38,903 nt of DNA from the IMG/VR virus record IMGVR_UViG_3300042731_006157, positions 1 to 38,903 of that record, one strand, 5' to 3'. Positions 11,692 through 36,291 of the stretch are shown one piece after another. A program made the translations under genes and the position numbers. The stretch comes from a virus. Every line of letters starts with the position of its first letter. The stretch's first letter is position 1. The notes below the pieces were generated by a model, which saw only the letters and a program-made list of their open reading frames with translations, made no database searches and was not told where the DNA came from.

Positions 11692-12038
11692 TGGCAACCT
11701 ATCCGACTTTCGCGCTCACAGGCCTAGCGATCCAGAAGATCCCTGTTCTTCCGAATGTCACTGTCCAGGAGACCATATCTGGGAAAGAGATCAGAATCGG
11801 GCATTCATCCACGGTCAGGTGGCGGTACAGGATACCGATCGAGATGATGACCGCTTCAGAGAGGACGGCTTTCTACGCGTTCCTCACGGATGCAGGTGGG
11901 GCATTGACCTCTTTTACGATCACCGATCCAGACACAGCTGCCACGGTCACCGTGAGGCTTGAGGATCCGGGTGTGCTGACCCGGCTGTTCCAAGGCGGGT
12001 GGGGGGACACGGATATCGGCCTGATCGAGGTGCTGTGA
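11691..12038 (+). CDS. Distal-tail-like protein
   Basis: A 115-residue beta-rich protein placed between the tape measure and the hub protein. Sequence features: an opening strand set (FALTGLAIQKIPVLPNVTVQ), GKEIRIGHSSTVRWRYRIPIEM, and TSFTITDPDTAATVTVRL. The family of short proteins at this spot corresponds to lambda M- or GTA g12-like distal tail proteins. The start overlaps the tape measure stop by one base and the stop overlaps the next ATG. Assignment rests on position and fold-like pattern rather than a decisive motif. Confidence 0.6.
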   Translation: MATYPTFALTGLAIQKIPVLPNVTVQETISGKEIRIGHSSTVRWRYRIPIEMMTASERTAFYAFLTDAGGALTSFTITDPDTAATVTVRLEDPGVLTRLFQGGWGDTDIGLIEVL

Positions 12039-12898
12039 TGAGGACGGGTTCCGCGGCCAAGACGCTGATCGAGGGCAACGACTTCTGGTTCCAGGCCGAT
12101 TTGCTCGAGCTGACGCTGGTCTCTGGCCAGGTGATTTATGTGACGACCTGGGACCAGAATATCACGAACGACGGGGATACCTTTCTGACGGCTGGTGGGG
12201 AAGACGACCGGCCTGGAATGAAGCGCGGGCTCATCCGGTGGGCAGTGGGAACCGAAGTTTCGACTTTCGGACTCGTGTTCTGGATCAATGCACCTGACCA
12301 GGGTTTCGGGGGAGAGGAATTCGCGACGCTAGCGGCAAACGGAGGTTTATACGGAGCGCAAATCAATTTCTGGCGGCTTGTCTCAGCGACTACCGGCGGA
12401 TTTGCGACTGCCGATCGTGTGTGGCTGTTCAGCGGCGATGTCACGGATATCTCGATCGACGGGAATGAGATCGGGATAACCGTTCAGTCACAGCTAGCCA
12501 AGCTTGGAGTCATGCTGCCAAAACGGAAATTCCAGGCGAGCTGTCCATACGCCTTTTGCGATGCCGCCTGTGGTCTGAGCGCTGCGACCTATACAACGGC
12601 GCGAACGGTTTCCAGCGTAACTGATCTGAGTCACATCACGGTCTCTGGCTCGATCACGAACGACTACTATAAGGGAGGGAATATTGTTTTTACTTCTGGT
12701 AACCTGATCGGCGTGCGGCGCAATGTGCTTGGGAACACGGCTGGATTGGTGACGCTCGATGCTCCCCTCCCGGCGGCCCCGTCTGTGGCCGATGACGTCG
12801 ATACAATGAGAGGCTGTGCCAAGACGCTGGCCGCGTGTACGGCATACAGCAATCAGACGCGGTTCCCTGGTTTCCCGTTTGCAACTAAGGGTGCATGA
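12038..12898 (+). CDS. Tail hub protein, DUF2163/BR0599 (lambda L / GTA g13-like)
   Basis: A 286-residue protein from ATG 12038 (overlapping TGATG). It has the two-part architecture of DUF2163 plus the phage BR0599 C-terminal region: an N-terminal beta part (FWFQADLLELTLVSGQVIY), FSGDVTDISIDGNEIGITVQS, a cysteine site SCPYAFCDAACG, and the terminal GCAKTLAACTAYSN-x-x-RFPGFPF. The conserved cysteines are the ones that hold an iron-sulfur cluster in related hub proteins such as lambda gpL (family knowledge). It forms the baseplate hub that binds the tail-tip protein encoded next. Confidence 0.85.
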   Translation: MRTGSAAKTLIEGNDFWFQADLLELTLVSGQVIYVTTWDQNITNDGDTFLTAGGEDDRPGMKRGLIRWAVGTEVSTFGLVFWINAPDQGFGGEEFATLAANGGLYGAQINFWRLVSATTGGFATADRVWLFSGDVTDISIDGNEIGITVQSQLAKLGVMLPKRKFQASCPYAFCDAACGLSAATYTTARTVSSVTDLSHITVSGSITNDYYKGGNIVFTSGNLIGVRRNVLGNTAGLVTLDAPLPAAPSVADDVDTMRGCAKTLAACTAYSNQTRFPGFPFATKGA

Positions 12899-15800
12899 TG
12901 GGCCTTGGATTTCTGACAGATAAGCTCAAGGCGCAGCGGGCGCAACTCGAGGGAGCGAACTACGCCAACTCGTTTGCTGGGTTGGGTGGTGGCGCGGACC
13001 TCGATATTTCCTCGATCTGCGTCCCGCTCGTCTATGGCAAGACCAAGGTCAAGGCACAGCCGATTCTCGTACCCAGTGATCTCAGCCGTCAGGAAACATA
13101 TGAGATCACCGTTTGGGGTCAGGTGATTCAGACGGGGCTTTCCTATATCTCGCAAGCCGGACAGTGGGCGCTCTGTCAGGGACCGATACTGGGTACCGTG
13201 TCCAAGGTCTGGCTAAACGATAAGTACAGTTCTACGCTCACCAAGCTACATCCGTTCACGGTGACGAGCGGCCCGCTGTCCCAGTCTCCATGGTCCTATC
13301 TGACCGGTCTATCTTGGTACATCTCAACAACCCTCACAGTGAGCGGTACCACTGTAACGATCAGCGATCCCGACTACTCGCCTTCGAACGTCATCGGCTG
13401 CGTAGTCAAATCAAGCAACAAATACCTGACGGAGATTTCGAGTGGATCTCCGACTGTCGACGAGTTTCTCCCTACGGGCGGCGGGATCACTGTCAACGCT
13501 GCTTGGGACGGCTACGCGCTTGGGATCACGTACATCGTTTTCACTGATCACACGTATAATGACTACGGGTATGGTGGTACCGCACTTCTAAGGTGCGCCG
13601 ATCTCAACCTGTCGAAGAACTATGACGGGCGGACGCCAGAGATCTGGTGCGAGGTTCAGGGACTACTCGGAACATCCGATCAGAACCCGATCGATATCAT
13701 TGAGGATCTACTGACCGATACCGTGCATGGAGCCGGGATTGACAGTGGTCTTTGTAGCTTTGAAAATGGTCAGGCTGGCGACGCAGCGTCCAGCCTCAGG
13801 CGATGGTCCGATCAGGCATCGCTCCTCATATCGGCTGCGATTGAAGACCAGCAGTCCGTTGCATCGATCATCGAAAACATCCTTGTCGGGTGTGATGGCG
13901 AGCTCGTGTGGAGTGATGGCCTGTTCCGGCTCTACCCGTATGCCGAGGCTGACCTCGGCACGTTCTCTGCCTGGCAGACCCCACAATATGAAATCACGGT
14001 CGACGATCTGATATCGGCCCCTGTCCTCAGGGTGGTTGACGCGGACAACACGTATAACGTCGTTCCAGTCGCATACACACAGAGAGCACCTGATGGAACC
14101 GACTGGAGCGAAGATCAGGTGTACAAGACAAAGGAGGTTGCGACTACCGAACTGGCTACCGCGGACTCGACTGGGACGCGAAAAGCTCCGACCGTTGCCA
14201 CCTACCTTCACAGCAAGACAGCGGCCCAGAAGCTGTCAGCGATCCTCGCTCGCCGGCTCACGTACCAGCGCACAGAATACGAACTACACGTCACGGCCCG
14301 TTACATGATGCTCGAACCGTTTGACATCATCGAGCTGACCTTTGCGCCACTCGGGATCAGTGAACGGACGCTGCGCATCGTGTCTATGGAACTGAATGAA
14401 GACGATACCGTCAGGCTGACGTGTGTCGACTGGCTAGGGATGCCTGACTTCGATCCAGAGCCCTTGGAGCCAGACGAGCCGCTGTCCCAGGACGTCACCC
14501 AGGATCCCGGCGATATCTCGGTTTCCTATTGTCGATTGGATCCCAGGTCGATGAACGTCTTGTTGGCCGCAGGCCTCGGGCCGAGCCAATGGTGGGGTGG
14601 GGCGGAATGCTGGATCAGCTGGAACGGGACCGACTACCATCAGGTTGGGTTCACGACCGGCTGTAACTTTGGCCAGCTGACCGGTGCTCTGACGACGGGT
14701 CCGGTCGAGGATACGCAGACACCACAGGTAGATCTGCAGATGGCCCAGGGGGTGCTTCCCGACACCTCGACAAACGAGCGGGATGCAGGGCTTAGGGCCA
14801 TGATCATCGGTGATGAATGCGTCTGGTTCGGTGACGTGACAGAGGACTCTGATCACGTTTATACGCTGGATGACATCCTTCGGGGTCAGGAAGGATCGGT
14901 AATCGAAGCCCACGCGGCTGGCGAACCTGTCCTCTACATTGATGACAAAGTCCTCAGACTACCCGTTACCCCTGACAAGGCAAACGCGACGCTCTACGTA
15001 AAATGGCTGACAGAGAACCTATTTGGGAGCGTGAAGCAAGAGCTGGCGGACGTCACTCCCTACACGTATACGATCCCCGCGTCAGTCGGCCAGTATCGAC
15101 TGTTCAGTTCTCCTGTCCGTGATGAGTTTCAGGGTCTTGATCTGAAGGAGTGGGAGCCGGTCAGCGGCGAGACGAACACGGGGATCCCAACCCTCGACAC
15201 GGATGCGGATGCTACCGGCGGGAAGATCCTATTGATCTCCGGTCAGCTAACGCTCGCCCTTGACAAGGTTATCCCGTTCAATCCGACAAGCGTCTATACG
15301 CTAAGTGTTAAATACCGTCTTGGGTCGACGAACCCAACGCTAAAGGCCGGTCTTTATGGCTTGGATGGCGATCGCGTGACATGGCTGGGTAAGACAGGAG
15401 GAACTGGGCTCAGCGATCAACCGGTAGGACTCGATACGACTGATGTAGATTCCAATTTTCAACTTGCACGGTTCTACTGGTCCGGCATCGATACGAGCGG
15501 CGGAGATGGAGCCTCCGACCTGACAGAGCTTTCAGCAATCAACGATGACACGCGGTACCTTGGGATATGGATACAGGCTGGCGCAGGGGCCGGTGCTGAA
15601 ACAGAAGTCGACTTCATTGAGCTGCGCGAGGAAGTCAGCGGAAGAACGATTGTCTATCAGTCACTTCCGTTCGTTGCACTTGTTCCCGACGGCGATGGTC
15701 AGATGTGGCCCAATGGTCACAGCGAAAGAGAGCCTGGCCCCGATGACCCGATCAACATGATCGACAATGAGGAGCAGGTTCTTCCGAGCTACACAAATTA

Positions 15801-16494
15801 TGGATCCGAATACGGCTGGATCTCGGATGCGAACCCAAAATTCGGCACATATAGTCGAGAGATTGACGGTTACGCTGGCTCAAGCGGGAGCGTCGTCAGC
15901 AGATATCTAGCGCACAGAAGTGCATGCATTGCGGGTCGTACTTATGCGCTCACAGCGCAGTTAACATGTGATTCAGCCTTGGAACAGGCGAACAGTCGCA
16001 TCTATTTTTATAACGCTGCAGGCAGTCAAATCAGTTACGTTGGGTCGAGTGTCTACATATCCAATGGATCGTGGGTGAAGGCCGGCGTTTGTGGCGTGGC
16101 GCCAGATGGCGCAGTCACGATGAAGGCTGCAATAGGCGTGATTACCAATATCGTCTCCTACACGGCATACATAGATGACATATCGCTGCGTGAAGTTGGC
16201 GGCGAGACTGGCCGTCAAATCTGTTCCGGAAGAATAGATGACGATGGTACAATCTTGGGTTCGCAGGGAGCGTACTTTACAGTGAGTCATGCAGGTACCG
16301 GCCTTTATGAGGTGACGATACCAGGGCTTGCCCCAGGCGCCGCACATTACTGCACTGTCTGTGTCACACCTAGTCCTGGCCAGGGACGATCTGGTACTGG
16401 TGGGTGGAGCGCTAGCGACTACGCAGATATTCGCCTGCTTGCGTTTAACTATTCCGCAGTCGATTGCCCATTCAATTTTATTATTATCGGATAA
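12895..16494 (+). CDS. Tail tip/host specificity protein (J/GTA g15-like)
   Basis: A 1,199-residue tail fibre/tip protein starting at ATG 12895 (or 12898), overlapping the hub stop. The N-terminal part (IPLVYGKTKV-like opening, EITVWGQVIQ) and the middle (PVAYTQRAPDGTDW, ARYMMLEPFDIIELTF, SMELNEDDTVRLTC) are those of phage tail J-like proteins; GEPVLYIDD and LPVTPDKANATLYVKW follow. Residues about 985-1105 look like a jelly-roll carbohydrate-binding module (SYTNYGSEYGWISD ... YIDDISLREVG). A beta-rich end closes the protein. It probably binds the host surface and triggers injection. Unusually long beta-rich C-terminal half. Confidence 0.88.
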   Translation: MMGLGFLTDKLKAQRAQLEGANYANSFAGLGGGADLDISSICVPLVYGKTKVKAQPILVPSDLSRQETYEITVWGQVIQTGLSYISQAGQWALCQGPILGTVSKVWLNDKYSSTLTKLHPFTVTSGPLSQSPWSYLTGLSWYISTTLTVSGTTVTISDPDYSPSNVIGCVVKSSNKYLTEISSGSPTVDEFLPTGGGITVNAAWDGYALGITYIVFTDHTYNDYGYGGTALLRCADLNLSKNYDGRTPEIWCEVQGLLGTSDQNPIDIIEDLLTDTVHGAGIDSGLCSFENGQAGDAASSLRRWSDQASLLISAAIEDQQSVASIIENILVGCDGELVWSDGLFRLYPYAEADLGTFSAWQTPQYEITVDDLISAPVLRVVDADNTYNVVPVAYTQRAPDGTDWSEDQVYKTKEVATTELATADSTGTRKAPTVATYLHSKTAAQKLSAILARRLTYQRTEYELHVTARYMMLEPFDIIELTFAPLGISERTLRIVSMELNEDDTVRLTCVDWLGMPDFDPEPLEPDEPLSQDVTQDPGDISVSYCRLDPRSMNVLLAAGLGPSQWWGGAECWISWNGTDYHQVGFTTGCNFGQLTGALTTGPVEDTQTPQVDLQMAQGVLPDTSTNERDAGLRAMIIGDECVWFGDVTEDSDHVYTLDDILRGQEGSVIEAHAAGEPVLYIDDKVLRLPVTPDKANATLYVKWLTENLFGSVKQELADVTPYTYTIPASVGQYRLFSSPVRDEFQGLDLKEWEPVSGETNTGIPTLDTDADATGGKILLISGQLTLALDKVIPFNPTSVYTLSVKYRLGSTNPTLKAGLYGLDGDRVTWLGKTGGTGLSDQPVGLDTTDVDSNFQLARFYWSGIDTSGGDGASDLTELSAINDDTRYLGIWIQAGAGAGAETEVDFIELREEVSGRTIVYQSLPFVALVPDGDGQMWPNGHSEREPGPDDPINMIDNEEQVLPSYTNYGSEYGWISDANPKFGTYSREIDGYAGSSGSVVSRYLAHRSACIAGRTYALTAQLTCDSALEQANSRIYFYNAAGSQISYVGSSVYISNGSWVKAGVCGVAPDGAVTMKAAIGVITNIVSYTAYIDDISLREVGGETGRQICSGRIDDDGTILGSQGAYFTVSHAGTGLYEVTIPGLAPGAAHYCTVCVTPSPGQGRSGTGGWSASDYADIRLLAFNYSAVDCPFNFIIIG

Positions 16495-16500
16495 TTGGGG

Positions 16501-16848
16501 TCACCATTCGCACATCACGCGAAACAGCTCCCACCCATCCTCAGTCTCGATCCAGTCAACTTTGACCGGAGAGTCCTCACACGACACCTGGTGGCCGTGG
16601 AGCGGGACAAGGTCCGGTTCATCCCAGTTCGCACACTCCCACCTACAGATCACGAACAGGGGCGCACCCTCGTATTCCTGTAGCCGACTGACAATCCGAT
16701 CGTCTGCTGTTCTGCACTCGTGATCGCCATCCGCGATCGCGCACACGGGCCCAGGTTCATCCTCACCACACCCACAGCCAACCAACGATCCAGATACAAC
16801 GAGCAAAGCGCCGAAGAGCGCTGTAATCCTTGATCCTCTTGAGCTCAT
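16501..16848 (-). CDS. Exported lipoprotein (superinfection-exclusion candidate)
   Basis: A 115-residue protein on the opposite strand to all neighbours. The N-terminus has basic residues, a hydrophobic stretch and lipobox SLVGC at about residue 25, so it should be a lipid-anchored envelope protein. The mature part has six more cysteines, a D/E-rich composition and tryptophans. AGGAGG lies six bases before ATG 16848. Its own promoter and palindrome lie just upstream. The gene sits beside the receptor-binding tail tip. Phage lipoproteins of this size in this setting, for example T5 Llp, block the receptor; a matching role here is inference, as no homology is recognised. Confidence 0.72.
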   Translation of the reverse strand: MSSRGSRITALFGALLVVSGSLVGCGCGEDEPGPVCAIADGDHECRTADDRIVSRLQEYEGAPLFVICRWECANWDEPDLVPLHGHQVSCEDSPVKVDWIETEDGWELFRVMCEW

Positions 16849-16969: not shown

Positions 16970-17461
16970 ATGTTGCCAAGAAGAGCGAAAATCCTAGTGA
17001 TTCTATCAGCCGTAGGCCTGTGCATCGCCGCTCCCCTCCGGGTCCTGGCCGCTGACTGTTCCTGGTCTCCGCTCAGCGGTCCCAATTCCGTAATCGCAAC
17101 CGGGGCGGCTGACTGCACCTTCACGCCTGCGACCGGAACGACGTCCGATGGAATGGCCCTTGATGGAGTTGGCGCGATCTCGGTCAAGGTCTGTGCGGCC
17201 TCCGGTCAGACGATTACCACAAAGTTTGTGCTCATCGGCTACACGATGGATCCGTACGACGACGTCTGGAGCAGGGATCCGAGTTGGGATTTGCCGAACG
17301 TCGACGGGGAGACGGGCGCAGAATGTCAGGTGGTTGGCACAAAGTCAGTGGTCGGCCCAGTTGGCCGGCTCGTCTATGGAGTCGAATCGGGCGCCGTCTC
17401 GAGCGGCACGATCACGATCAAGATCATTGCAAGCGAATTTGGGCGCGGGCGGCTGCTATGA
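16970..17461 (+). CDS. Secreted beta-rich protein of unknown function
   Basis: A 163-residue protein after AAAGGAGG (16954-16961). It has a clear Sec signal peptide (basic MLPRRAK, hydrophobic core, cleavage near VLA-AD). The mature domain has about five cysteines and a beta pattern (GAISVKVCAASGQTI, KFVLIGYTMDPYDDVW, GPVGRLVYGVESGAV, GTITIKIIA). It resembles a small receptor-binding or fibre-tip sandwich, but no family is recognised. It is the first of four consecutive signal-peptide genes after the tail tip. A weak promoter TTGACC-17-TAGGCG lies at 16920-16948. The last four bases overlap the next ATG. Confidence 0.7.
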   Translation: MLPRRAKILVILSAVGLCIAAPLRVLAADCSWSPLSGPNSVIATGAADCTFTPATGTTSDGMALDGVGAISVKVCAASGQTITTKFVLIGYTMDPYDDVWSRDPSWDLPNVDGETGAECQVVGTKSVVGPVGRLVYGVESGAVSSGTITIKIIASEFGRGRLL

Positions 17462-18150
17462 AAAGGCTTTTCCCCCTGGTACTACTATGCCTGGTGCCCG
17501 GAGCCAGTCTGGCACAGGTTCCCGGGCCTGAGGTTCCTCCATGGCTTTCTCTTTTGTCTGAGTCCGGCGGGACGTTGACTTTGTCCGGGGACATGATCGC
17601 CGCAAGCCTCACCACAACTACGACCGCAGGGAACCAAGCGCTCACGATTGTTGAGGGCTCGTATATCTGTCTTAACGTATCGTGCACTGTTTACATCTAC
17701 AAATCTGGCGGAACTACTGGTTTGAATTCGGGTGGCGGGCCCTGGTCCGCCTATGGCTTCTATGCTAGCGAATTTGTCAGGTTCGGGGCCTCGGGTCTCT
17801 ATCCATCTGGAAGCAGCTACCCGGCGATAATCAAAGGCAATAGGCCGGTAGGAGCTGGTCCATCCGTTGTGGCGGGATCGAACGACGCTCAGACATCCGC
17901 CACAACCGATGTCTTTGCTGTTTCCTACACCGATACCTTGGACGACGCTGACAATACATTCTACGTTAATGCAGCCGGGATGCCACGTCTCGGGATCGGG
18001 AACACGACCGCGACACCAACCTGTGATGCTACTGAGCGCGGCCGTATCTGGGTCGTTGAAGGTGGGGCAGGGGTTACTGATACAATCTCGATGTGCCTAA
18101 AGGCTGCAGCTGACACTTATTCCTGGATCACAATCACGACTGGAGGCTAA
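17458..18150 (+). CDS. Secreted fibre-like protein with QVPGPE mature N-terminus
   Basis: A 230-residue protein; ATG 17458 overlaps the previous stop and gives a perfect signal peptide (MKRLFPLVLLCLVPGASLA), so longer in-frame starts are rejected. The predicted mature protein begins QVPGPEV. It then has Gly/Ser/Thr-rich fibre-like segments and an end (CDATERGRIWVVEGGAGVTD ... MCLKAA) like the C-terminal domains of phage and metagenome tail fibres. Identical first residues QVPGPE occur in the product of 18545. Exported fibre proteins are unusual for tailed phages. Confidence 0.72.
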   Translation: MKRLFPLVLLCLVPGASLAQVPGPEVPPWLSLLSESGGTLTLSGDMIAASLTTTTTAGNQALTIVEGSYICLNVSCTVYIYKSGGTTGLNSGGGPWSAYGFYASEFVRFGASGLYPSGSSYPAIIKGNRPVGAGPSVVAGSNDAQTSATTDVFAVSYTDTLDDADNTFYVNAAGMPRLGIGNTTATPTCDATERGRIWVVEGGAGVTDTISMCLKAAADTYSWITITTGG

Positions 18151-18157
18151 CAACATC

Positions 18158-18535
18158 ATGAAAACCCTTATCCTTGGCATGACGCTGACCTTTTCCGTTC
18201 TTGGGTTTGCGCTGTTCTTCCTCCCGGCACAGACGGATGCCAACGCATCCGCAAGCTTGCGCGGGCCGGAGGACTATGAAGACTCACAGTGGACAACCGT
18301 CAACATCCGGAACAAGGATGCGGCTGGAAACTATTCTGCGACGATCACAATCTGCACAAACGATCCAACGCCCGGCGTTGAGAAACGCGGAGGCTGTATC
18401 AGTTACACGAGGGCACAAGACACTCTGCCTACACCAGCCAGGACGATTGTCGACGCGATGATTGAGGACTTTTACGATAATGGAATAGATCCCGAGAACG
18501 ATCAGTCTAACGCTCAGTACAGGCCATCTCCATAG
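18158..18535 (+). CDS. Small exported protein, unknown function
   Basis: A 125-residue protein with an N-terminal hydrophobic segment (MKTLILGMTLTFSVLGFALFF) ending at a possible cleavage site near ANASA. The rest is polar with two cysteines, NIRNKDAAGNYSATITICT and a terminal acidic helix (DAMIEDFYDNGIDPENDQ). It lies between two QVPGPE-type secreted proteins in a tightly spaced operon. It could be a chaperone or connector of these exported proteins. No family recognised. Confidence 0.6.
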   Translation: MKTLILGMTLTFSVLGFALFFLPAQTDANASASLRGPEDYEDSQWTTVNIRNKDAAGNYSATITICTNDPTPGVEKRGGCISYTRAQDTLPTPARTIVDAMIEDFYDNGIDPENDQSNAQYRPSP

Positions 18536-18544
18536 GGGTAGATC

Positions 18545-20362
18545 ATGAGGATCGTCATCGCAGTGATATGGTTGTTTCCGGTCCTGGTCCTGGCCCAGGT
18601 TCCTGGCCCTGAGAGCTCGGTCAGCCAGAGTGGGGTTTCAAGCGCTCCGCTCCAGGCGCCGCGGTTCGACGTCACGGATCAAGACTGGGAGTACTATGTC
18701 GCGACGACGGGAAGCGACGCAAACAGTTGCTTGAGCGCGTCCTCTCCTTGCCTGACGGTTGCCGGTGTAATGGCCAAGGTGCCCGATCGATGGAAGGCAA
18801 AGGCCCGGGTACACTATGGCGCTGGCACGTTTGCTGTCCCTGCTCACGTCGCGATCGGTCTTGGCGGAGAGCCGCTCGTCTGGCAGGGCACAATGATTGA
18901 CAGTGGGCTTGGGACGATGACCATCTCGCATTCCCCGGTGGTTCAATACCACTGGGGACAGGATCGAGTTATCGCAGTGCGTGACAGCTCGACATCTCCA
19001 ACTCTGGACCAATACGAGGGCTACACGATTCGGTTCACATCAGGTGATGCCGTTGGTGTTCAGCGAATGCTACGCGGAAACGCCACGGACGGGACCTATG
19101 AATTTAACGTAATGATTTCCTCCTACACTGACATCCCGGCAATAGGCGATACTTTCGTCATTGAGAAGCCGGGGACAATCCTTCAAACGTCAACGAATAG
19201 CATATTTTCCGCAACTTCCAAGGGTCGCGGAGGAAAGGGCGATTCCACGGTTCAGCTCGGTCTCTATCAGATCCAATTAGATCACGCAGCGGGAAGTGGG
19301 GAGGGTTACTTTAAGTTTGACGGTGTCAAAGTTAGAGCAATCAATACGTGGTTCACAGGCATAAGCAGCGGCTACACCGGCATACTGGTTGCAAACGGCG
19401 GCGCGTGGTGGGCTACAGGTGTTGATGGAGCTTACGACGGCGACACTTTGAGCGACAACCTGTTTTCGCTCACAACTCCATATGACACCCTAGGTGTGGG
19501 GTCTTTTTTCAAGAAAACGACCTGTTCGACCGGCGGCCTGTTCATCCAGGACCATTCAGTAGGCGGTGGGTTTTTCGTCGGAAGAAACTCAAAGATGTGG
19601 GCTCAAAATTCACTATTCCGAAACGTGCACAACCTATCATGGCGCGGCTGTAAACTTGACTTGGAGGCGGGATCTGGGCTCGTGCTGTATAACTACTACG
19701 CCCCTACCGGCCGGATTGACTCGGCGTCGTATGGAATCCAGCTCAATATTCTGAGCTGGGCACAGATCAATGGTCCGCTCGATATTTCCGATTCTGCGCC
19801 AGGAATGTCGATCACCAATAGCTCGTATGCCTATATCACCAATCTAATTGGTACAGGCAACACATACGGGATCACAGTCGAGGAATTCAGTAGACTAGCC
19901 GAGGGAGCCGGCAATACGATCACTGGGTCATCTGGGGACATTGCAGTTGCGGGTCTTGTGACTTCACACGCTGACGTATACACCAACGATATACCGTTGT
20001 GGGGCGGAACGGGCGGCGTAGCGATGAAAAACACGAGCACTGCGTTGCCGGTCGTGCGTAGTGGTCCGACTACCATCGGCTCGGGAGGCACGGAAATCGA
20101 TAGTTCGATCAGGTGTACCGATACCCTTGACACGAATCTGATCGCGGCTGGGACCACAGTATCCCAGTCGGTATCCTGCTCAGGCGCCGTTGTGGGCGCC
20201 GAATGCTCGGTTGGTGGCCCCTCCTCCCTTGAGGCTGGATTGACGCTCTCATGCGTGGTGTCTGCAGCCGATACGGTGGATCTGCGGGTGGCAAACGTGA
20301 CCGTCGGCGGTATCACTCCAGCGGGCAGTCAAACGGCCAGCGTGAGGGTCTGGAATCCATGA
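18545..20362 (+). CDS. Secreted beta-helix tail-spike-like protein
   Basis: A 605-residue protein with signal peptide (MRIVIAVIWLFPVLVLA) and predicted mature start QVPGPESS. From about residue 57, YYVATTGSDANSCLSASSP is the usual entry of right-handed beta-helix (pectate-lyase-like) tail spikes; many short Gly/Ser/Thr turns follow to about residue 470. The C-terminal 100 residues (RCTDTLDTNLIAAGTTVSQS ... DTVDLRVANVTVGG) resemble the beta-sandwich end of tail spikes. Likely a polysaccharide-binding or depolymerase spike. Catalytic residues cannot be assigned. The signal peptide is the odd part. The stop overlaps the next ATG. Confidence 0.75.
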   Translation: MRIVIAVIWLFPVLVLAQVPGPESSVSQSGVSSAPLQAPRFDVTDQDWEYYVATTGSDANSCLSASSPCLTVAGVMAKVPDRWKAKARVHYGAGTFAVPAHVAIGLGGEPLVWQGTMIDSGLGTMTISHSPVVQYHWGQDRVIAVRDSSTSPTLDQYEGYTIRFTSGDAVGVQRMLRGNATDGTYEFNVMISSYTDIPAIGDTFVIEKPGTILQTSTNSIFSATSKGRGGKGDSTVQLGLYQIQLDHAAGSGEGYFKFDGVKVRAINTWFTGISSGYTGILVANGGAWWATGVDGAYDGDTLSDNLFSLTTPYDTLGVGSFFKKTTCSTGGLFIQDHSVGGGFFVGRNSKMWAQNSLFRNVHNLSWRGCKLDLEAGSGLVLYNYYAPTGRIDSASYGIQLNILSWAQINGPLDISDSAPGMSITNSSYAYITNLIGTGNTYGITVEEFSRLAEGAGNTITGSSGDIAVAGLVTSHADVYTNDIPLWGGTGGVAMKNTSTALPVVRSGPTTIGSGGTEIDSSIRCTDTLDTNLIAAGTTVSQSVSCSGAVVGAECSVGGPSSLEAGLTLSCVVSAADTVDLRVANVTVGGITPAGSQTASVRVWNP

Positions 20363-20697
20363 TCTGCGGGCATGCATTCCAGCTGGTCGCGGGCGTGGCC
20401 ATGGCAGTCATTTCGTGCGCTCATCAGCCGGTGCCACCTGAGCCGCGCCCAGCACCCTGCCCCTGTCCAGAGCCGCCTGTCCAAGGTTCGCCAGTCGTGT
20501 CTGTGTGTCCTGTGTGTCCGGATATCCATCTCACGAACCCGCCAACCGAGCCGAAGATCGACTGGGTACCTGAAGGGTGCCCACCGCAGTTTCTCTCGTG
20601 CCTATCTGGCGCGGATGCGGAGCGCCTGAATCGATACATGCGCGCTGTGCAGCGGTGGGCGCTCGAGACAAGCCGGAGGTGTCGTGCCATACGATAA
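20359..20697 (+). CDS. Proline-rich lipoprotein, outer-spanin (Rz1) candidate
   Basis: A 112-residue protein from ATG 20359, which overlaps the spike stop. It has a hydrophobic N-terminus with lipobox VISC at about residue 20, followed by a Pro/Cys-rich stretch (PPEPRPAPCPCPEPP) and a helical end. A short proline-rich lipoprotein just before the lysis genes fits an outer-membrane spanin subunit. It is larger than typical Rz1 (60-80 residues). It is not embedded in the inner spanin gene. Confidence 0.6.
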   Translation: MICGHAFQLVAGVAMAVISCAHQPVPPEPRPAPCPCPEPPVQGSPVVSVCPVCPDIHLTNPPTEPKIDWVPEGCPPQFLSCLSGADAERLNRYMRAVQRWALETSRRCRAIR

Positions 20698-21049: not shown

Positions 21050-21363
21050 CCCAATCAGAGGTAAATACGAGGATAGACGAGATCGCTGCGGCTGCGCGCG
21101 ATTACAAGGTGGTCGTAGAGTGCAGGATCGGGAAGCTCGCTGAGGCTACCGCACAGTGCACAGCAATCGCGCTTGAACTCAAGACGTGGGGCGAGAATAT
21201 CCGGGACTCTGCTGAACGCATTGAGCGCCGTCAAAAACATGATGAAGATCGTTGGCGCATCTGGCATGCGAAATATATGGAGGCTCTCTCAGATCATGAG
21301 CGCCGACTGAAGAAGATCGAGTCTAAAAACGGCAAGAACGGAAATGGAAAGCGGGTGACGTGA
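21046..21363 (+). CDS. Small coiled-coil protein in the lysis cassette
   Basis: A 105-residue, soluble, mainly helical protein (Arg/Glu/Ala-rich) with a basic C-terminus (KNGKNGNGKRVT). No membrane segment or signal peptide. It overlaps the membrane protein before it (ATGA) and ends at the start of the endolysin. I recognise no family. It may work with the upstream coiled-coil membrane protein. Confidence 0.55.
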   Translation: MTQSEVNTRIDEIAAAARDYKVVVECRIGKLAEATAQCTAIALELKTWGENIRDSAERIERRQKHDEDRWRIWHAKYMEALSDHERRLKKIESKNGKNGNGKRVT

Positions 21364-21902
21364 TGGCAACCTTTGAACTGGCGATCGGCGCAACACTCCA
21401 ACACGAGGGAGGCGCGAAATACACGAACAGGAAGAACGATCATGGAGGCCCCACCAAATACGGGATCACGCGCCGAACCCTACAGGACTGGAGACAGCGG
21501 AAGGTCACTGCTGCCGATGTGAAGGCACTCACAGAAAAAGAGGCTTGCGATATCTATCGAGCGCGATACTGGGATCTCGCACAGTGCGATCGGATTCGTG
21601 ACCAATCCGTCGCAGCCAAGATCTTCGATATGGCCGTCAATTTCGGGATCATGCGGCGCGGCACGGACGCGGCGGAGATCACGCAACGCGCTGTGGTCGC
21701 CTGTGGCCGGCCGATACGGATCGATGGATGGGTGGGGCCGGAGACCATCGGCGGCGTGAACGGTTGTCACCCCACGCGCCTCCTGCCTGAGCTTTGCGCT
21801 GAGCAGAAAAGGGCATACCTGGCTATCATCAGATGTGATCCAACACAGGAAGAGAACCGCCGGGGCTGGCTGAAGCGTGCTCGCTGGAAGGGCGGTGCAT
21901 GA
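21363..21902 (+). CDS. Endolysin, GH108-type N-acetylmuramidase
   Basis: A 179-residue muramidase from ATG 21363 (a GTG three bases before is also possible). Start FELAIGATLQHEGG holds the catalytic Glu of the EGG motif of the GH108 family, followed by NDHGGPTKYGITRRTLQDW. The C-terminal half (FDMAVNFGIMRRGTDAAEITQRA, DGWVGPETIGGVN) is the peptidoglycan-binding type 3 domain that accompanies it. It cuts glycan strands. It has no signal peptide, so it needs a holin to reach the cell wall. Confidence 0.93.
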   Translation: MATFELAIGATLQHEGGAKYTNRKNDHGGPTKYGITRRTLQDWRQRKVTAADVKALTEKEACDIYRARYWDLAQCDRIRDQSVAAKIFDMAVNFGIMRRGTDAAEITQRAVVACGRPIRIDGWVGPETIGGVNGCHPTRLLPELCAEQKRAYLAIIRCDPTQEENRRGWLKRARWKGGA

Positions 21903-22162: not shown

Positions 22163-22347
22163 CCAGGGAGGAGAAAGGCGTCAGACTGGCTGACCTCGTG
22201 ATCCTGGAGATCGCGACTACCGCTCTGTGTTTCCTGGAGCCTCGCCGCGCCTCAGAATTCGATGGCCTTGCGCTGATCATCAGGCACCTCGAAGGCCTGC
22301 GGGCAACCGAGAAATCGATTCTTGACCAGGAGGTGACCGATGAGTGA
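22159..22347 (+). CDS. Small protein of unknown function
   Basis: A 62-residue helical protein (MTREEKGVRLADLVIL) starting in an ATGA overlap with the holin candidate and overlapping the next gene. Slightly hydrophobic first helix, but not a clear membrane segment. No family recognised. Tight coupling argues that it is real. Confidence 0.5.
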   Translation: MTREEKGVRLADLVILEIATTALCFLEPRRASEFDGLALIIRHLEGLRATEKSILDQEVTDE

Positions 22348-23104
22348 GGTTCGGAAGGTTCTTTTGACGGCCGTCAAACAACTTGCTGGTTGGCTTGCAT
22401 TCGCAATCGGGATGTTCGTTTTACTTGTGCTCCTCAGCCGCTCGTGTGGACGTGAAGCTGAGGCCATGGCCAGGCTCGAGCGCATGGAGAAGGCCTCAGA
22501 GCTCAAGGATCAGGGGTTCCTGGTGGCGATAGAGGCTCAACAGGGTGTGCTGGATTCTCGCGCTGCACAGATCCCCGAGCTACAGGAGCAAATCAAGAGG
22601 CTGAAGAAGTCCGTGAAAGAGGCGCGGATAATCCGGGTGGGGCACATTGAGACTGAGCCAGCCGAGGCCCAAGGCGATTCCCTGCCACAGCCAGCAGCCG
22701 GCGAACCGTGCCCTGACTGCAAGTTCGCGACCGGGAACAGGGGAAAGATCGTGATCGACTCTGTCGACCTGGAGACCAAGGAAGGCGTTCAGGTGGCGGT
22801 TGTTTCCGCTGGATGCGAGCGGATATCCCCCGGGCCTAAAACGCGCTTCCTGTCTGGAGTTGGGAGCGCTGAGCTGTCCGAAATGATGACATCAGACAGG
22901 CCTGCTGAACGGAGCGCAGAGAAAGAGAAGGGGCTCGTGATCTCCGCGCTCGCTGGCGTGGCGCTCACGGAGACTGGCGTAACCCCGGTAATCGGCGGGT
23001 CATTCGTCAGCAAGCCATTCCTCTTAGATCGCATTGCTGGTACAGCTCACATGTCCGGCGGCCCGGGCGTGGTCACCGTCCTTGGTGGCCTTTCCCTTAG
23101 GTGA
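22340..23104 (+). CDS. Membrane protein with periplasmic coiled coil (inner spanin-like or structural)
   Basis: A 254-residue protein with a strong AGGAGGTGA at 22328-22336. One transmembrane helix (residues about 16-34), then a long coiled coil to about 95 (QIPELQEQIKRLKKSVKEAR), a CPDC pair near residue 133 and a Gly/Val-rich C-terminus (GLVISALAGVALTETGVTPV). A single-TM, coiled-coil protein next to the endolysin fits an inner spanin, but the long C-terminal part is not typical and the exact function is open. It ends the rightward late operon. Confidence 0.55.
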   Translation: MSEVRKVLLTAVKQLAGWLAFAIGMFVLLVLLSRSCGREAEAMARLERMEKASELKDQGFLVAIEAQQGVLDSRAAQIPELQEQIKRLKKSVKEARIIRVGHIETEPAEAQGDSLPQPAAGEPCPDCKFATGNRGKIVIDSVDLETKEGVQVAVVSAGCERISPGPKTRFLSGVGSAELSEMMTSDRPAERSAEKEKGLVISALAGVALTETGVTPVIGGSFVSKPFLLDRIAGTAHMSGGPGVVTVLGGLSLR

Positions 23105-24768: not shown

Positions 24769-26463
24769 TTAGACGAGTTCATTGCTTGCGTACAGCTCGC
24801 CGCGGCCAATAATGAGCTCCAAGGATCGAAGACGAGAAAGGTACGTGGAGAATGTTCCCGACCGGTGGGAGATGGCGGCCCGTTGGCCCAGGGTCTCCGC
24901 ATCAAGCGAGCGGGGGTAGGCCTCCAGGAGCACGCGCAGCATGCGGCCGGCTCCACTTTCGCCGAGTTGGCGCAGCCAGTAGTCCGCCAGCGCAGGCCCT
25001 TCGGGAAGGGGATCGTAGTCCCCGAGCGCGGCAATGCCTTTGTCGGTGATCTGGATTGTGCCCCGACCACCGATCCACCCACTGGACCTGGCGCGCGAAA
25101 GATAGGTGGAGAACGTCCCACTGCGAGAGGAGATGCCGGCGCGCACCCCGAGCTGTCTGGTAGTCAAGCCGTTTGGTCTTTGGGCAAGCGCAATCATCAT
25201 GCGACGTAGGCCGCTGGAACCGAGCTTCGGATCTCCTTCTGATGGAGGTCGCGTTACCACTTCCTCTTTTTTGCCCTCAAAGGAGGACAGGGGTCGTCGA
25301 ATCTCAGGATTGCGAGAGACGTCAGCGACTCGGGCGAGATCGTGTCTGACGCCATCAGCAACCCGCTGCAACACGTCGATTCCATGGAGCGCTCGATTCG
25401 CCACCACTTCCAGCCGTTTGATCTGTCCGTCCTTCAGCAAGGGCACTTCGACGCGCTTTTCGACCGTACGCTCGAGCTTCTTGTCGATACGCTCGGCCGC
25501 GGCGTTCGCTTTGGCGAGGATCGCCTCGAGCTCCGCGATGCGCCGGCGAAGCGCCTTGGGATCGTCGCGTTCGGCTTCCTTCACGACGTCGGCAAGGTCT
25601 ACCTTGAGAGCTTCCACGTCGACCGCCGAGAGGCTGGCTGCCTTTGCGGCTCGGCCGACTTCGGGAGTCGCGGAGGCATCAAAGGTCGTCTTCGTTGCAA
25701 AGTGAACGCGCCGAAAGATGCGCAGCCAAGAAGGCGACCAAACGTACCCCTCACCTCGGGCCAGACCGGGGAGCTCACCAACGAGCTTCCGATCGGCTCC
25801 GGCTTCCTGCACCCACTCTTCGAGCGCCTTCCGCTCGTGAGTGCCATTGACCTGGAGGACGCACAGACACTCGACCTGGGAGAGAACCTCCTTGTTGACG
25901 GACTGCGGTCGTTGCGTGACGAGCGTGCAGCCGACACCGTAGTTCCGGCCGAGCCGGACTATCGACTCGTAGGCTCCGAGCATACGGGTTTCGTCTGGGC
26001 CGGCGCGCTGAGGGGCAAAGAGCTGAGCCTCCTCAATGAACAAGTGGACCGGCGTTCGCTGGCTCTTCTTGAGGTGAAAGAGCTCCTCGCCGAATTCGGC
26101 GGCGAAACGCTTCCGTTCTCCTATGCGAAACGGCGAGAGGTCGAGCACAGCAGAGACACGACGCTCGACGATCAAACGTGCGATTCGGCCTCCAGCTTCT
26201 GGCGCCATGGGCAGATCTCCGTGATCTCCGCCGATGACAAAGATCTCCTTTCCGCGGCTTTTCCCGTTGGCGCCGACGCGGAGCCCCCACCAATTGCCCA
26301 CGGGGTCGATGGCCACAACCTGGGCTGAGGCATCGAGCATCTGCTCGGCGAGCATGGTCGCGAGATAGGTCTTGCCGGCCCCTTTGCGCCCAATCGCCGC
26401 AAGCGTCTGCGTCACCGCGTCGAGCGGGAGAGAGAGCTCTTTTGAAATGTGAAGTTTCTTCAT
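24769..26463 (-). CDS. HerA/DUF87-type ATPase with duplicated C-terminal winged helices
   Basis: A 564-residue AAA-type motor. ATG 26463 (MKKLHISKEL) has GAGGTG five bases before; a longer in-frame start is unnecessary. Walker A GRKGAGKT at 25-32, Walker B LFIEEA at 141-146, sensor-like LVTQRPQSVNKEV at 181-193, so the HerA/FtsK-superfamily DUF87 core occupies 1-260. Residues 300-340 form a coiled coil. The end holds two tandem helix-turn-helix repeats, about 437-468 and 525-555, with RSGTFSTYLSR identical in both. Base composition is visibly more GC-rich than its neighbours, suggesting transfer. HerA motors move DNA or partner with NurA-type nucleases; no NurA is seen here. Confidence 0.85.
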   Translation of the reverse strand: MKKLHISKELSLPLDAVTQTLAAIGRKGAGKTYLATMLAEQMLDASAQVVAIDPVGNWWGLRVGANGKSRGKEIFVIGGDHGDLPMAPEAGGRIARLIVERRVSAVLDLSPFRIGERKRFAAEFGEELFHLKKSQRTPVHLFIEEAQLFAPQRAGPDETRMLGAYESIVRLGRNYGVGCTLVTQRPQSVNKEVLSQVECLCVLQVNGTHERKALEEWVQEAGADRKLVGELPGLARGEGYVWSPSWLRIFRRVHFATKTTFDASATPEVGRAAKAASLSAVDVEALKVDLADVVKEAERDDPKALRRRIAELEAILAKANAAAERIDKKLERTVEKRVEVPLLKDGQIKRLEVVANRALHGIDVLQRVADGVRHDLARVADVSRNPEIRRPLSSFEGKKEEVVTRPPSEGDPKLGSSGLRRMMIALAQRPNGLTTRQLGVRAGISSRSGTFSTYLSRARSSGWIGGRGTIQITDKGIAALGDYDPLPEGPALADYWLRQLGESGAGRMLRVLLEAYPRSLDAETLGQRAAISHRSGTFSTYLSRLRSLELIIGRGELYASNELV

Positions 26464-26467
26464 GATT

Positions 26468-26794
26468 TCACCTCGGCCAGAGTTTCGTTTCCTGACCATT
26501 GGAGTCGAAAACCATATAGGTCCAGGAGTAATTTTCTAGACCTCGGCCATCGTCCATTGCAGCGTGGTAGAGTTCCTCAAGCGCGTCCCTCATCGTTGAT
26601 CCATGCCCGGCGATTGCATACCCTCTTAGGCGGGCGCAGAAACTTCTCCCGCTCTGAACTGGTTGAATATCAACGACAAGAGAATCCATGACGCCAATCT
26701 GCTCCGCGAACCCTTTCTGCGTACAGCCTGGATCCCGCTTACTCTGGCGATCTATCCACTCCCTAAGCGTCATACATCCCGTCTCTTCCTTCAT
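26468..26794 (-). CDS. Chimeric protein: duplicated HTH start fused to a HicB-like domain
   Basis: A 108-residue protein; ATG 26794 overlaps the previous stop (ATGA), with a second possible start at 26773. Residues 8-34 (MTLREWIDRQSKRDPG-CTQKGFAEQIGV) nearly repeat the start of the Cro-like protein at 30145, at DNA level too. Then the sequence changes to VVDIQPVQSGRSFCARLRGYAIAGHGSTMRDALEEL, which looks like a HicB-type domain (ARL-x-GY ... GSTMRDALEEL). No HicA toxin is visible beside it. It ends near the HerA-like gene. Confidence 0.6.
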   Translation of the reverse strand: MKEETGCMTLREWIDRQSKRDPGCTQKGFAEQIGVMDSLVVDIQPVQSGRSFCARLRGYAIAGHGSTMRDALEELYHAAMDDGRGLENYSWTYMVFDSNGQETKLWPR

Positions 26795-27372
26795 AACGCG
26801 TCACCTCCCGCCAACGCCCTGCGGACCTCGCGCTCGAAGACTGCGAGCTTCGCCGAGTCCTTGCTGTCAGTAAATCCTCCGTGGTGGCCAAGTTCATGGA
26901 TGATAGCCATGTCCGTGAGTTTCTTTGGGGCGAAAAAATGCTCAACAACTCCGCAATCAAGCACCTCGTCATGGTCATATCCTGTGCTCAGCCAGATCGC
27001 GGCCGGCCTGTCCGGCCCGTTTGCAGGTGAGTAGCAGCCGTTGGCCCACTTCCTCCCGCACTTCCGATGACCGTACTCGAAAATCAGATCGAGCGGCCCT
27101 CGAAGCGGCTCATCCAGGACGCACTGGACCGCGGTCAGAACCCTAATCAGCTCCTCCTTGAACCCTTCGGTATGTACCCAGGGCGGGCATCCACGCAGAA
27201 TCCAGACTCGGAGCCCAGTCATGTCCGGGGGAAGGGCGAACGTCGGAGGACCTCGGCCATCGTCCACATCATGCCAATCCCTCCAGATCGCCCAGACAAT
27301 GGATGTGACCACGCACACGATCATGATTATCAGTATCGCATTGTCAGATATGACTCCAAGTATATGGTTCAT
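26791..27372 (-). CDS. Membrane-anchored protein with zincin HELGHH motif
   Basis: A 193-residue protein. An N-terminal membrane helix spans residues about 10-30, then a soluble part ends with DMAIIHELGHHGGFTDSKDS (His159-Glu160-x-x-His163), the HExxH signature of zinc metallopeptidases. A third ligand may be Asp169 or Glu180/182. AAAGGGA precedes ATG 27372. Peptidase activity is inferred from the motif; the membrane anchor suggests action on the inner face or the periplasm. No relative named. Confidence 0.68.
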   Translation of the reverse strand: MNHILGVISDNAILIIMIVCVVTSIVWAIWRDWHDVDDGRGPPTFALPPDMTGLRVWILRGCPPWVHTEGFKEELIRVLTAVQCVLDEPLRGPLDLIFEYGHRKCGRKWANGCYSPANGPDRPAAIWLSTGYDHDEVLDCGVVEHFFAPKKLTDMAIIHELGHHGGFTDSKDSAKLAVFEREVRRALAGGDAL

Positions 27373-29434: not shown

Positions 29435-29845
29435 CTACAGCGCAAAAAACAGATATACGCCCACTGCGAGCGCGGTAATCGCGGCTGTAACAACGATGAC
29501 GCCTACTGCAGTGCCCAAAGGGTTTTTGATTGCCATTTTTTCCAGCTCCTGGTGTGGCCTGATCGGGTCCATCCATCGCTCATAATCGGTTGAACACTGT
29601 GAAAGACCTGAGCGGCTGGGGGTGCCCGTGGGGGTCCCGCCCCGCGAGGCCCCAGGGGATTCCGTCTCAGGCCTTTCACAACAGTCAACCGATTCCAGTT
29701 CTGCGAACGTATTGAGCACGACCCGGGCCCTACACCATGAGCATTGTACGTCGAGCCCCTTATTCCTCTGCGGCCAGCACGTACAGCGCACGTCGTCGAC
29801 CATGTCTGTGAGCGCAACAAACAGAGCCTTCTCACGATAATTCAT
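29435..29845 (-). CDS. Zinc-ribbon and membrane-tail protein over a large inverted repeat
   Basis: An open frame of 136 codons with ATG 29845 overlapping the previous stop (TAATG). Residues 20-40 hold CTCW and CSWCRA, a zinc-ribbon-like site. The last 30 residues are a single membrane helix (GTAVGVIVVTAAITALAVGV). The middle (about residues 52-88) is encoded by a 111-nt imperfect inverted repeat and looks unstructured. An internal ATG at 29536, with AGGAG upstream, would give a separate 33-residue membrane peptide. So this may be two genes separated by an RNA element rather than one fused protein. Confidence 0.45.
   Translation of the reverse strand: MNYREKALFVALTDMVDDVRCTCWPQRNKGLDVQCSWCRARVVLNTFAELESVDCCERPETESPGASRGGTPTGTPSRSGLSQCSTDYERWMDPIRPHQELEKMAIKNPLGTAVGVIVVTAAITALAVGVYLFFAL
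29584..29694. repeat. 111-nt imperfect inverted repeat (fold-back element)
   Basis: Left arm starts AATCGGTTGA at 29584-29593 and continues TGTGAAAG ... CCTGAG ... CGG; the right arm, read on the other strand, has the same order: AATCGGTTGA, TGTGAAAG, CCTGAG, CGG. About 27 of 33 positions pair. Inside sit GC-rich blocks (CTGGGG ... CCCCAG at about 29615 and 29650) that can form an inner stem. The whole folds as one long hairpin on either strand. Confidence 0.75.
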
Positions 29846-35285: not shown

Positions 35286-35494
35286 TACACCATGATCCTA
35301 CCATTGGGTTGTCGTCGATGCGTCTCGTTGAGACGCACGAACGGCTGATCTCTAAGCCGTTTCAGAATTCGCAGAGCAGTGCTCTCGCTGACCTTGAGCG
35401 CCTTCGCGAGCTCCGTCGCTCGCTTTGGGTGGTGAGCGAGTAGATGCATGGCAAGCATTAGCCGATTAGTGTATTCGCTAAACGTCTGGCTCAT
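35261..35494 (-). CDS. Stand-alone winged-helix DNA-binding protein
   Basis: A 77-residue protein. Residues about 11-50 hold a helix-turn-helix (LMLAMHLLAHHPKRATELAK, ALKVSESTALRILKRLRD), and residues 53-72 look like the beta wing (RQPNGRIMVYYSL). It resembles the MarR/TrmB/IclR-type small regulators. Its ATG 35494 overlaps the stop of the LacI-like gene by four bases (ATGA), so the two are co-translated. It has no ligand domain. It may supply the DNA-binding part missing from that protein. Confidence 0.82.
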   Translation of the reverse strand: MSQTFSEYTNRLMLAMHLLAHHPKRATELAKALKVSESTALRILKRLRDQPFVRLNETHRRQPNGRIMVYYSLEQRS

Positions 35495-36291
35495 GTCGAC
35501 CTCCTCCTTACGGCCGATCCTCTGATGATGAGTTCTGGTGGGAAGGTGATTGTCTCTGGATCTGACAACGCGCGCTCATGATCCTGCACTGCCATCCGGT
35601 AGGCGGCTACGGCCATCTCGCGCAGTGGTTGGGATATTGTCGTAAGGCTTGGTGTGACAATCTGCCCTACTGGAGCATCGTCGTAGCCGACCAGCGAAAG
35701 GTCATGAGGGATCGACACGCGATGGTCTCTCGCGGCCTTCATGATCCCGATCGCGCAGTCGTCACCAGCCGCACAGAACACGGCGGTCCCTGCAATCTGA
35801 TCGAAAAGGCGCTCGCCCTCTCGCGCAGAGTATTGTGGTGCCTGAAGACGCCTGATCGGCATATACCCTGCGGACTGTAAGGCCTCACAAAAGCCGAGGT
35901 CACGTTGAATCGCATTCAGATCTTTGGTCGCTCCTGTGAGAAGCGTTATCTCCTGATGGCCGAGGTCCAGGAGATGCCGCGCGGCCAGGCGCGCCCCCTC
36001 CTGATTGTCGACCAGGATCGAAGCCGCGCCATTCGCGCGCTCGTCAATCAGGATTACTGGAATCCCTGCGGCCCTGTATGCTGAGATCACGTCATCCGGC
36101 GGCCTGAGCGATACACAGACAAGCGCGGTCGATTTGTCCTTGAGCGACTGAGAGAGCACCTGCCTCTGGCGGGTCGGCGAGTGCGTCGCAGGCCGTGATA
36201 CGAGTCGCGGCGCGCAATGCCGAAGGTGCTCGAGGAAATGCACTGTGAAATAGCCAAAAAAATCAGGTGCAATAACTGTTAGTGGTGTCAT
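35491..36291 (-). CDS. LacI-type ligand-binding domain without a DNA-binding domain
   Basis: A 266-residue protein that starts directly with the periplasmic-binding-like fold (MTPLTVIAPDFFGYF). All LacI core motifs are seen: VDNQEGARLAARHLLDLGH (94-112), AIQRDLGFCEALQSAGY (127-143), AVFCAAGDDCAIGI (170-183), VSIPHDLSLVGYDD (192-205), TPSLTTISQPLREMAV (213-228). A LacI repressor normally has about 60 residues of helix-turn-helix and hinge before this; they are absent. AGGAGG lies 11 bases before ATG 36291. Ligand unknown (sugar or purine-like effector by family). It shares an operon with the winged-helix gene. Confidence 0.88.
   Translation of the reverse strand: MTPLTVIAPDFFGYFTVHFLEHLRHCAPRLVSRPATHSPTRQRQVLSQSLKDKSTALVCVSLRPPDDVISAYRAAGIPVILIDERANGAASILVDNQEGARLAARHLLDLGHQEITLLTGATKDLNAIQRDLGFCEALQSAGYMPIRRLQAPQYSAREGERLFDQIAGTAVFCAAGDDCAIGIMKAARDHRVSIPHDLSLVGYDDAPVGQIVTPSLTTISQPLREMAVAAYRMAVQDHERALSDPETITFPPELIIRGSAVRRRST

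Follow-up and report, generated by a model that had tools for sequence, protein, structure and literature searches.

Phage tail fibres normally assemble in the cytoplasm, so export signals on fibre-like phage genes are unexpected. A cluster of such genes in an environmental virus (IMG/VR record IMGVR_UViG_3300042731_006157) raises the question of whether their products leave the cytoplasm and, if so, whether they end up on the virion. Here we analyse the window, the whole 38,903-nucleotide record. On the left it carries a siphovirus structural module, whose last genes encode a baseplate hub protein and the J-like tail tip; four genes (hereafter the cassette, with each gene named by its first position) lie beyond this module on the plus strand (Table 1). 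Their reading frames were confirmed and their spacing is tight, with a 4-bp overlap, in which the start of 17458 overlaps the stop of 16970 (ATGA), followed by gaps of 7 and 9 bp. The cassette has the tail-tip gene on one side and the endolysin gene on the other, as the initial annotation had described, except that a minus-strand gene (16501–16848) intervenes directly after the tail tip. This gene encodes a small lipoprotein (lipobox LVGC, eight cysteines), which could be a surface or superinfection-exclusion lipoprotein. On the lysis side, the proline-rich lipoprotein (outer) and the membrane/coiled-coil product of 22340–23104 on the plus strand (inner) resemble a spanin pair, with the endolysin gene between them; neither matched a family above the cut-off. 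Elsewhere on the minus strand, 35491–36291 encodes a LacI-type sugar-binding domain (Peripla_BP_3, 5e-30) whose DNA-binding domain is apparently missing, and 24769–26499 encodes a HerA-like ATPase (top PADLOC match HerA, 5e-20, with a match to mad8 as well).

Table 1. Coordinates of the cassette, its elements and its neighbours in the window.
Feature	Coordinates	Strand	Description
Baseplate hub protein	12038–12898		PF09931 and PF09356
Tail-tip (J-like) protein	12895–16494	+	Phage-tail_3, Rcc01698_C
Predicted exported protein 1, 163 aa	16970–17461	+	Signal peptide aa 1–27; four mature Cys; no known family
Predicted exported fibre-like protein 2, 230 aa	17458–18150	+	Signal peptide aa 1–19; mature N terminus QVPGPE
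LAQVPGPE copy 1	17509–17532	+	Predicted signal peptidase site
C-terminal fibre domain of 17458, aa 184–227	18007–18138	+	Common to Goe8 spike and predicted exported phage proteins
Protein 3, predicted exported or membrane-anchored, 125 aa	18158–18535	+	Long hydrophobic N terminus; two Cys
Predicted exported spike-like protein 4, 605 aa	18545–20362	+	Signal peptide aa 1–17; mature N terminus QVPGPE; eight Cys
LAQVPGPE copy 2	18590–18613	+	Predicted signal peptidase site
BR0599-related domain of 18545, aa 147–210	18983–19174	+	Relatives: baseplate hub proteins, including own 12038 product
C-terminal domain of 18545	20096–20359	+	Weakly shared with predicted exported Cys-bearing ctLwi270 and ctUh1700 proteins
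Proline-rich lipoprotein	20362–20697	+	Lipobox VISC; candidate outer-membrane spanin (Rz1-like); first lysis-region gene
Endolysin	21360–21902		GH108; further lysis genes also after 20362

The initial annotation had assigned Sec signal peptides to all four consecutive genes. Our own signal-peptide feature scoring, used in place of SignalP and applied to 46 genes, bears this out, with 18158 as the weakest call. Judged by a positive n-region, a hydrophobic core and small residues at −3 and −1, as expected for Sec and signal peptidase I, the leaders of 16970, 17458 and 18545 are clear, with predicted cleavage of 16970 after MLPRRAKILVILSAVGLCIAAPLRVLA (ending RVLA, before ADC), of 17458 after MKRLFPLVLLCLVPGASLA (ending GASLA, before QVPGPE) and of 18545 after MRIVIAVIWLFPVLVLA (ending VLVLA, before QVPGPE). 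Gene 18158 has a long hydrophobic stretch with possible cuts after FFLPA (before QTD) or after ANA (before SA). The remaining N-terminal signals among the 46 genes belong to two lipoproteins (16501–16848 and 20362–20697) and to lysis-region membrane proteins, and the N termini of 29435–29845 and 26791–27372 are hydrophobic without being typical leaders. The predicted mature parts of 16970, 17458, 18158 and 18545 contain 4, 4, 2 and 8 cysteines, respectively.

Whole-protein searches, including viral contigs, found no close relatives of the complete cassette proteins, and none of the four had a Pfam, PHROGs or NCBIfam match above the cut-off. At the level of domains, the C terminus of 17458 is a tail-spike domain with a Cys pair; over 40 residues it shares 52% identity with the C terminus of the pectate-lyase-like spike from Bacillus phage vB_BmeM-Goe8 (QDP42877.1, MN043729.1), the gene of which adjoins another pectate lyase gene. 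Unlike 17458, the Goe8 spike has no signal peptide, and Ala replaces the first Cys of its pair. AlphaFold predicts a small beta domain (pLDDT 86), for which the best Foldseek matches among viral models were Goe8 and other phage proteins; a Foldseek search of the PDB gave no significant match. Relatives of the domain, sought with a two-row alignment, were located at 15 IMG/VR loci, one of which (L167) is a poor match. In six unrelated phage contigs the proteins that contain it have Sec leaders, and extra leader-bearing genes lie alongside in five of the six, giving three signal-peptide genes in L153 (in tandem), L155 and L160, two in L157 and L159, and one clear case in L158. Their neighbours are terminase and portal genes (L153 and L159), a tape measure gene (L160), an internal virion protein gene (L157), head genes (L158) and an endolysin gene (L155). 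These contigs thus resemble the present phage in combining a Sec leader, a Cys-paired C-terminal domain and mostly tandem genes in structural or lysis surroundings, whereas their bodies and mature N termini are unrelated to QVPGPE and their backbones differ. In L159, gene 5508 (leader MKKLLLALIMAGALAFG, with Gln at +1) is a clear pectate-lyase tail spike bearing a signal peptide (Pfam PF12708, 4e-17; PHROGs phrog_2234, 1e-13), and gene 9785 carries carbohydrate-binding and lectin-like domains. Going by these leaders, predicted export of fibre-like proteins extends beyond one phage, the same arrangement occurring in several unrelated environmental phages. No fibre relatives of 16970 or 18158 were found.

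The cysteines of this domain follow the leader. Leader-bearing proteins have the Cys pair (PTC...VC.K) without exception, whereas the leader-less L154, L161, Goe8 and the group L163–L166 have Ala at the first Cys position; counted by contig or lineage, the pair is present in 7 of 7 contigs with a signal peptide and in 0 of 4 lineages without one (Fisher 0.003). Leader and pair are also both present in two bacterial relatives (L178 and L179), chromosomally encoded exported proteins with fibre-like repeats beside a Wzz-like gene, which are possibly adhesins related to phage fibres. The link between cysteines and leader could reflect the host phylum, since low-GC phages make up three of the four lineages that lack a leader. 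Phylum probably does not account for all of it, because the fourth lineage, L163–L166, has a GC content of 0.61–0.63 and lacks both leader and pair, and L165 has terminase- and portal-like genes.

The second large protein, 18545, also contains a virion tail-protein domain. A BR0599 profile, built from the C-terminal domain of baseplate hub proteins at related loci and of the phage's own hub protein, scores 35.6 bits against residues 147–210, compared with 13.5 for the best of 2,000 shuffles. The last 88 residues weakly match a 164-residue protein of Podoviridae sp. ctLwi270 (MW202554.1; E 0.05), the domain of which matches a 146-residue protein of Siphoviridae sp. ctUh1700 (MW202637.1) at 7e-10. 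Both proteins have, like 18545, a signal peptide and a cysteine-containing C-terminal domain, but they are small, have no spike body and are annotated as hypothetical; one of the genes lies just before a candidate endolysin gene (by sequence reading) and the other directly follows the major capsid gene. ctUh1700 carries a second signal-peptide-bearing fibre-like gene (L181:9986–10519), also annotated as hypothetical, with the stretch HGHG..I..D.SA.A.IAHSKL. The earlier description of 18545 as a beta-helix spike is plausible at most, since the Pfam NosD match (E = 0.038) falls below the cut-off and the single-sequence AlphaFold model (pLDDT 33) was left unused. The single match to the N-terminal Cys-spacing pattern of 18545 (L065) was rejected on inspection as chance.

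Export of the cassette products and their folding outside the cytoplasm are very probable and well supported, given the signal peptides, the Cys pairs that track them and the recurrence across eight or more further phage records. Since 17458 and 18545 share domains with a tail spike and a baseplate hub, and a relative is a tail spike with a predicted leader, the sequence data strongly support both as exported fibre- or spike-like proteins; for 16970 the data argue for export alone, and for 18158 less firmly. We conclude that the cassette encodes probable exported fibre or spike proteins, which would be cleaved, stabilised by disulfides and made late in infection. It is unlikely that the hydrophobic N termini are instead virion or membrane anchors retained in the mature proteins. 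The long hydrophobic stretch of 18158 could indeed stay anchored, but the clear n-, h- and c-regions, the small residues at −3 and −1, the Cys pairs that accompany leaders and the occurrence of unrelated leaders before the same mature sequence (see below) argue against retention.

The leaders of 17458 and 18545 end at the same point and are followed by QVPGPE, as initially noted. Both genes encode LAQVPGPE precisely where cleavage is predicted; the two 24-bp copies differ at three positions, each of them synonymous, and the pattern CARGTNCCNGGNCC has 2 matches in the window against 0.02 expected. The DNA had been described as nearly the same around this site, which is true of the 24 bp only, because the flanks are unrelated: nucleotide identity is 46% over the rest of the signal peptides and 28% over the following 20 codons, none of which is identical. 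The proposed search for a signal peptide followed by QVPGPE in other phages came back empty in IMG/VR, where 62 contigs encode AQVPGPE in some frame and none has a signal peptide before it; QVPGPE is therefore not a widespread tag, and we rejected it as a general one. The repeat is genuine, coincides with the predicted cleavage site and is specific to this phage. The same phenomenon appears at a larger scale in L153, in which 47 mature codons of the tandem genes 5114 and 7248 are 97% identical, starting from the Gln after the cleavage site. Because the leaders (0 of 18 codons identical) and the bodies past the 47-codon module are unrelated, the start of the shared module coincides with the cleavage site. 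This argues that the mature N terminus is a unit kept common among tandem exported fibres. Of the suggested N-terminal docking tag, the shared mature segment thus stands, whereas QVPGPE as a common tag does not; the L153 module is a precedent in kind and the best support for the proposed docking.

Could the repeat reflect chance together with a signal-peptidase preference for Gln at +1? Such a preference, compatible with a role on or off the virion, is suggested by a Gln at +1 in 8 of 17 of these phage leaders against 1 of 113 in the background (by a crude rule) and in two to three of the four cassette proteins. A Gln rule is established in Bacteroidetes (PMC5837995) and is noted for Porphyromonas phage genes (PMC10367356). 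The Bacteroidetes rule may not apply to the host of the present phage, because the phage has a GC content of 57% and tail genes that resemble those of Pseudomonadota phages. The rule can explain the Q but not VPGPE; with five more identical residues, exclusively synonymous differences, 0.02 expected matches and the 47-codon counterpart in L153, we consider chance an improbable source of the repeat. It is very unlikely that the cassette products are Lom-type adhesins for lysogenic conversion (morons) that a prophage would express. The lambda lom gene is located between J and the gene for the side tail fibre, and its product is exported, which parallels a cassette between J and the fibre/lysis region; Lom is, unlike the cassette products, an outer-membrane barrel from a conversion gene and is not fibre-like. 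The four genes are packed with the lysis genes and show no separate transcription unit: a consensus scan found no promoter-like site on the plus strand of the cassette region, and the proteins searched, which fall short of a full annotation, included no integrase.

The cassette is unusual for phages with a related tail tip, since one fibre-like gene with a leader was found across 84 such loci (80 from bacterial genomes, plus phage records). Downstream of these tail tips, 38 of 377 ORFs passed a loose leader test, and by eye they were mostly spanins, holins and bacterial genes. The one fibre-like gene (15366–16481, leader ending AGA before QTV) lies in a Sphingomonas prophage, L089; the same domains, with no leader in front, are present in a gene from Microcystis phage Mae-JY24 and in a tail-region gene from Mycobacterium phage Funsized. 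No match to the 17458 C-terminal domain was obtained from 398 genomes belonging to the same phylum as this Sphingomonas genome, in a run without a positive control. Pseudomonas phage KT1 has two long leader-less fibre- or spike-like proteins just past its tail tip. A search of the non-subscription literature found no paper on Sec-exported tail fibres.

What is observed directly (gene order, signal-peptide features, the segment at the cut, tail-protein domains, the link between cysteines and leader, and recurrence) suggests a scheme that we hold at slightly below even confidence. The fibre- and spike-like proteins would be produced late in infection and exported by Sec, would lose their leader to signal peptidase I and would fold in the periplasm with disulfide bonds. 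Lysis would release them together with the virions, and as receptor- or polysaccharide-binding proteins they would bind to completed virions, at lysis or later, by way of the short mature N-terminal segment common to the two larger proteins. Against this scheme, the bacterial relatives are exported and are not phage parts, QVPGPE is restricted to this phage, no relatives among fibres were found for 16970 and 18158, and the cassette is almost never present in prophages or phages that have a related tail tip. Furthermore, we know of no way for a protein in the periplasm to be added to a tail assembled in the cytoplasm.

There is a sizeable, though lesser, chance that the exported proteins act without the virion as released or surface-bound binders or depolymerases, which would cover the receptors on debris, prevent superinfection or remove polysaccharide from the surroundings of the lysing cell. 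Consistent with this, exported bacterial proteins encoded beside a Wzz-like polysaccharide gene contain the same Cys-paired domain, L159 9785 has its carbohydrate-binding and lectin-like domains, and a lipoprotein gene adjoins the cassette. In the accessible part of the Porphyromonas gingivalis phage report (PMC10367356), genes with signal peptidase I signals that expose Gln, as in the cassette, are read as possible modifiers of the host surface; they differ in belonging to a Gln-rule host phylum and in not being described there as tail-fibre-like. By contrast, the location of the genes within structural modules in L153, L159, L160 and ctUh1700, and a shared mature N-terminal module that suggests a common partner, favour virion attachment. 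Given export, we regard attachment to the virion and action as a free or surface-bound binder as about equally probable.

More tentatively still, this phage and its counterparts may represent a class that matures adhesion parts outside the cytoplasm, exporting them through Sec and mounting them at lysis by an N-terminal module that cleavage exposes. If disulfide-bonded fibres are indeed exported in unrelated phages, they would imply either a second assembly site for phage adhesion proteins or surface-bound or secreted binders made by phages, and the annotation of genes that are merely 'hypothetical' in two published genomes would change.
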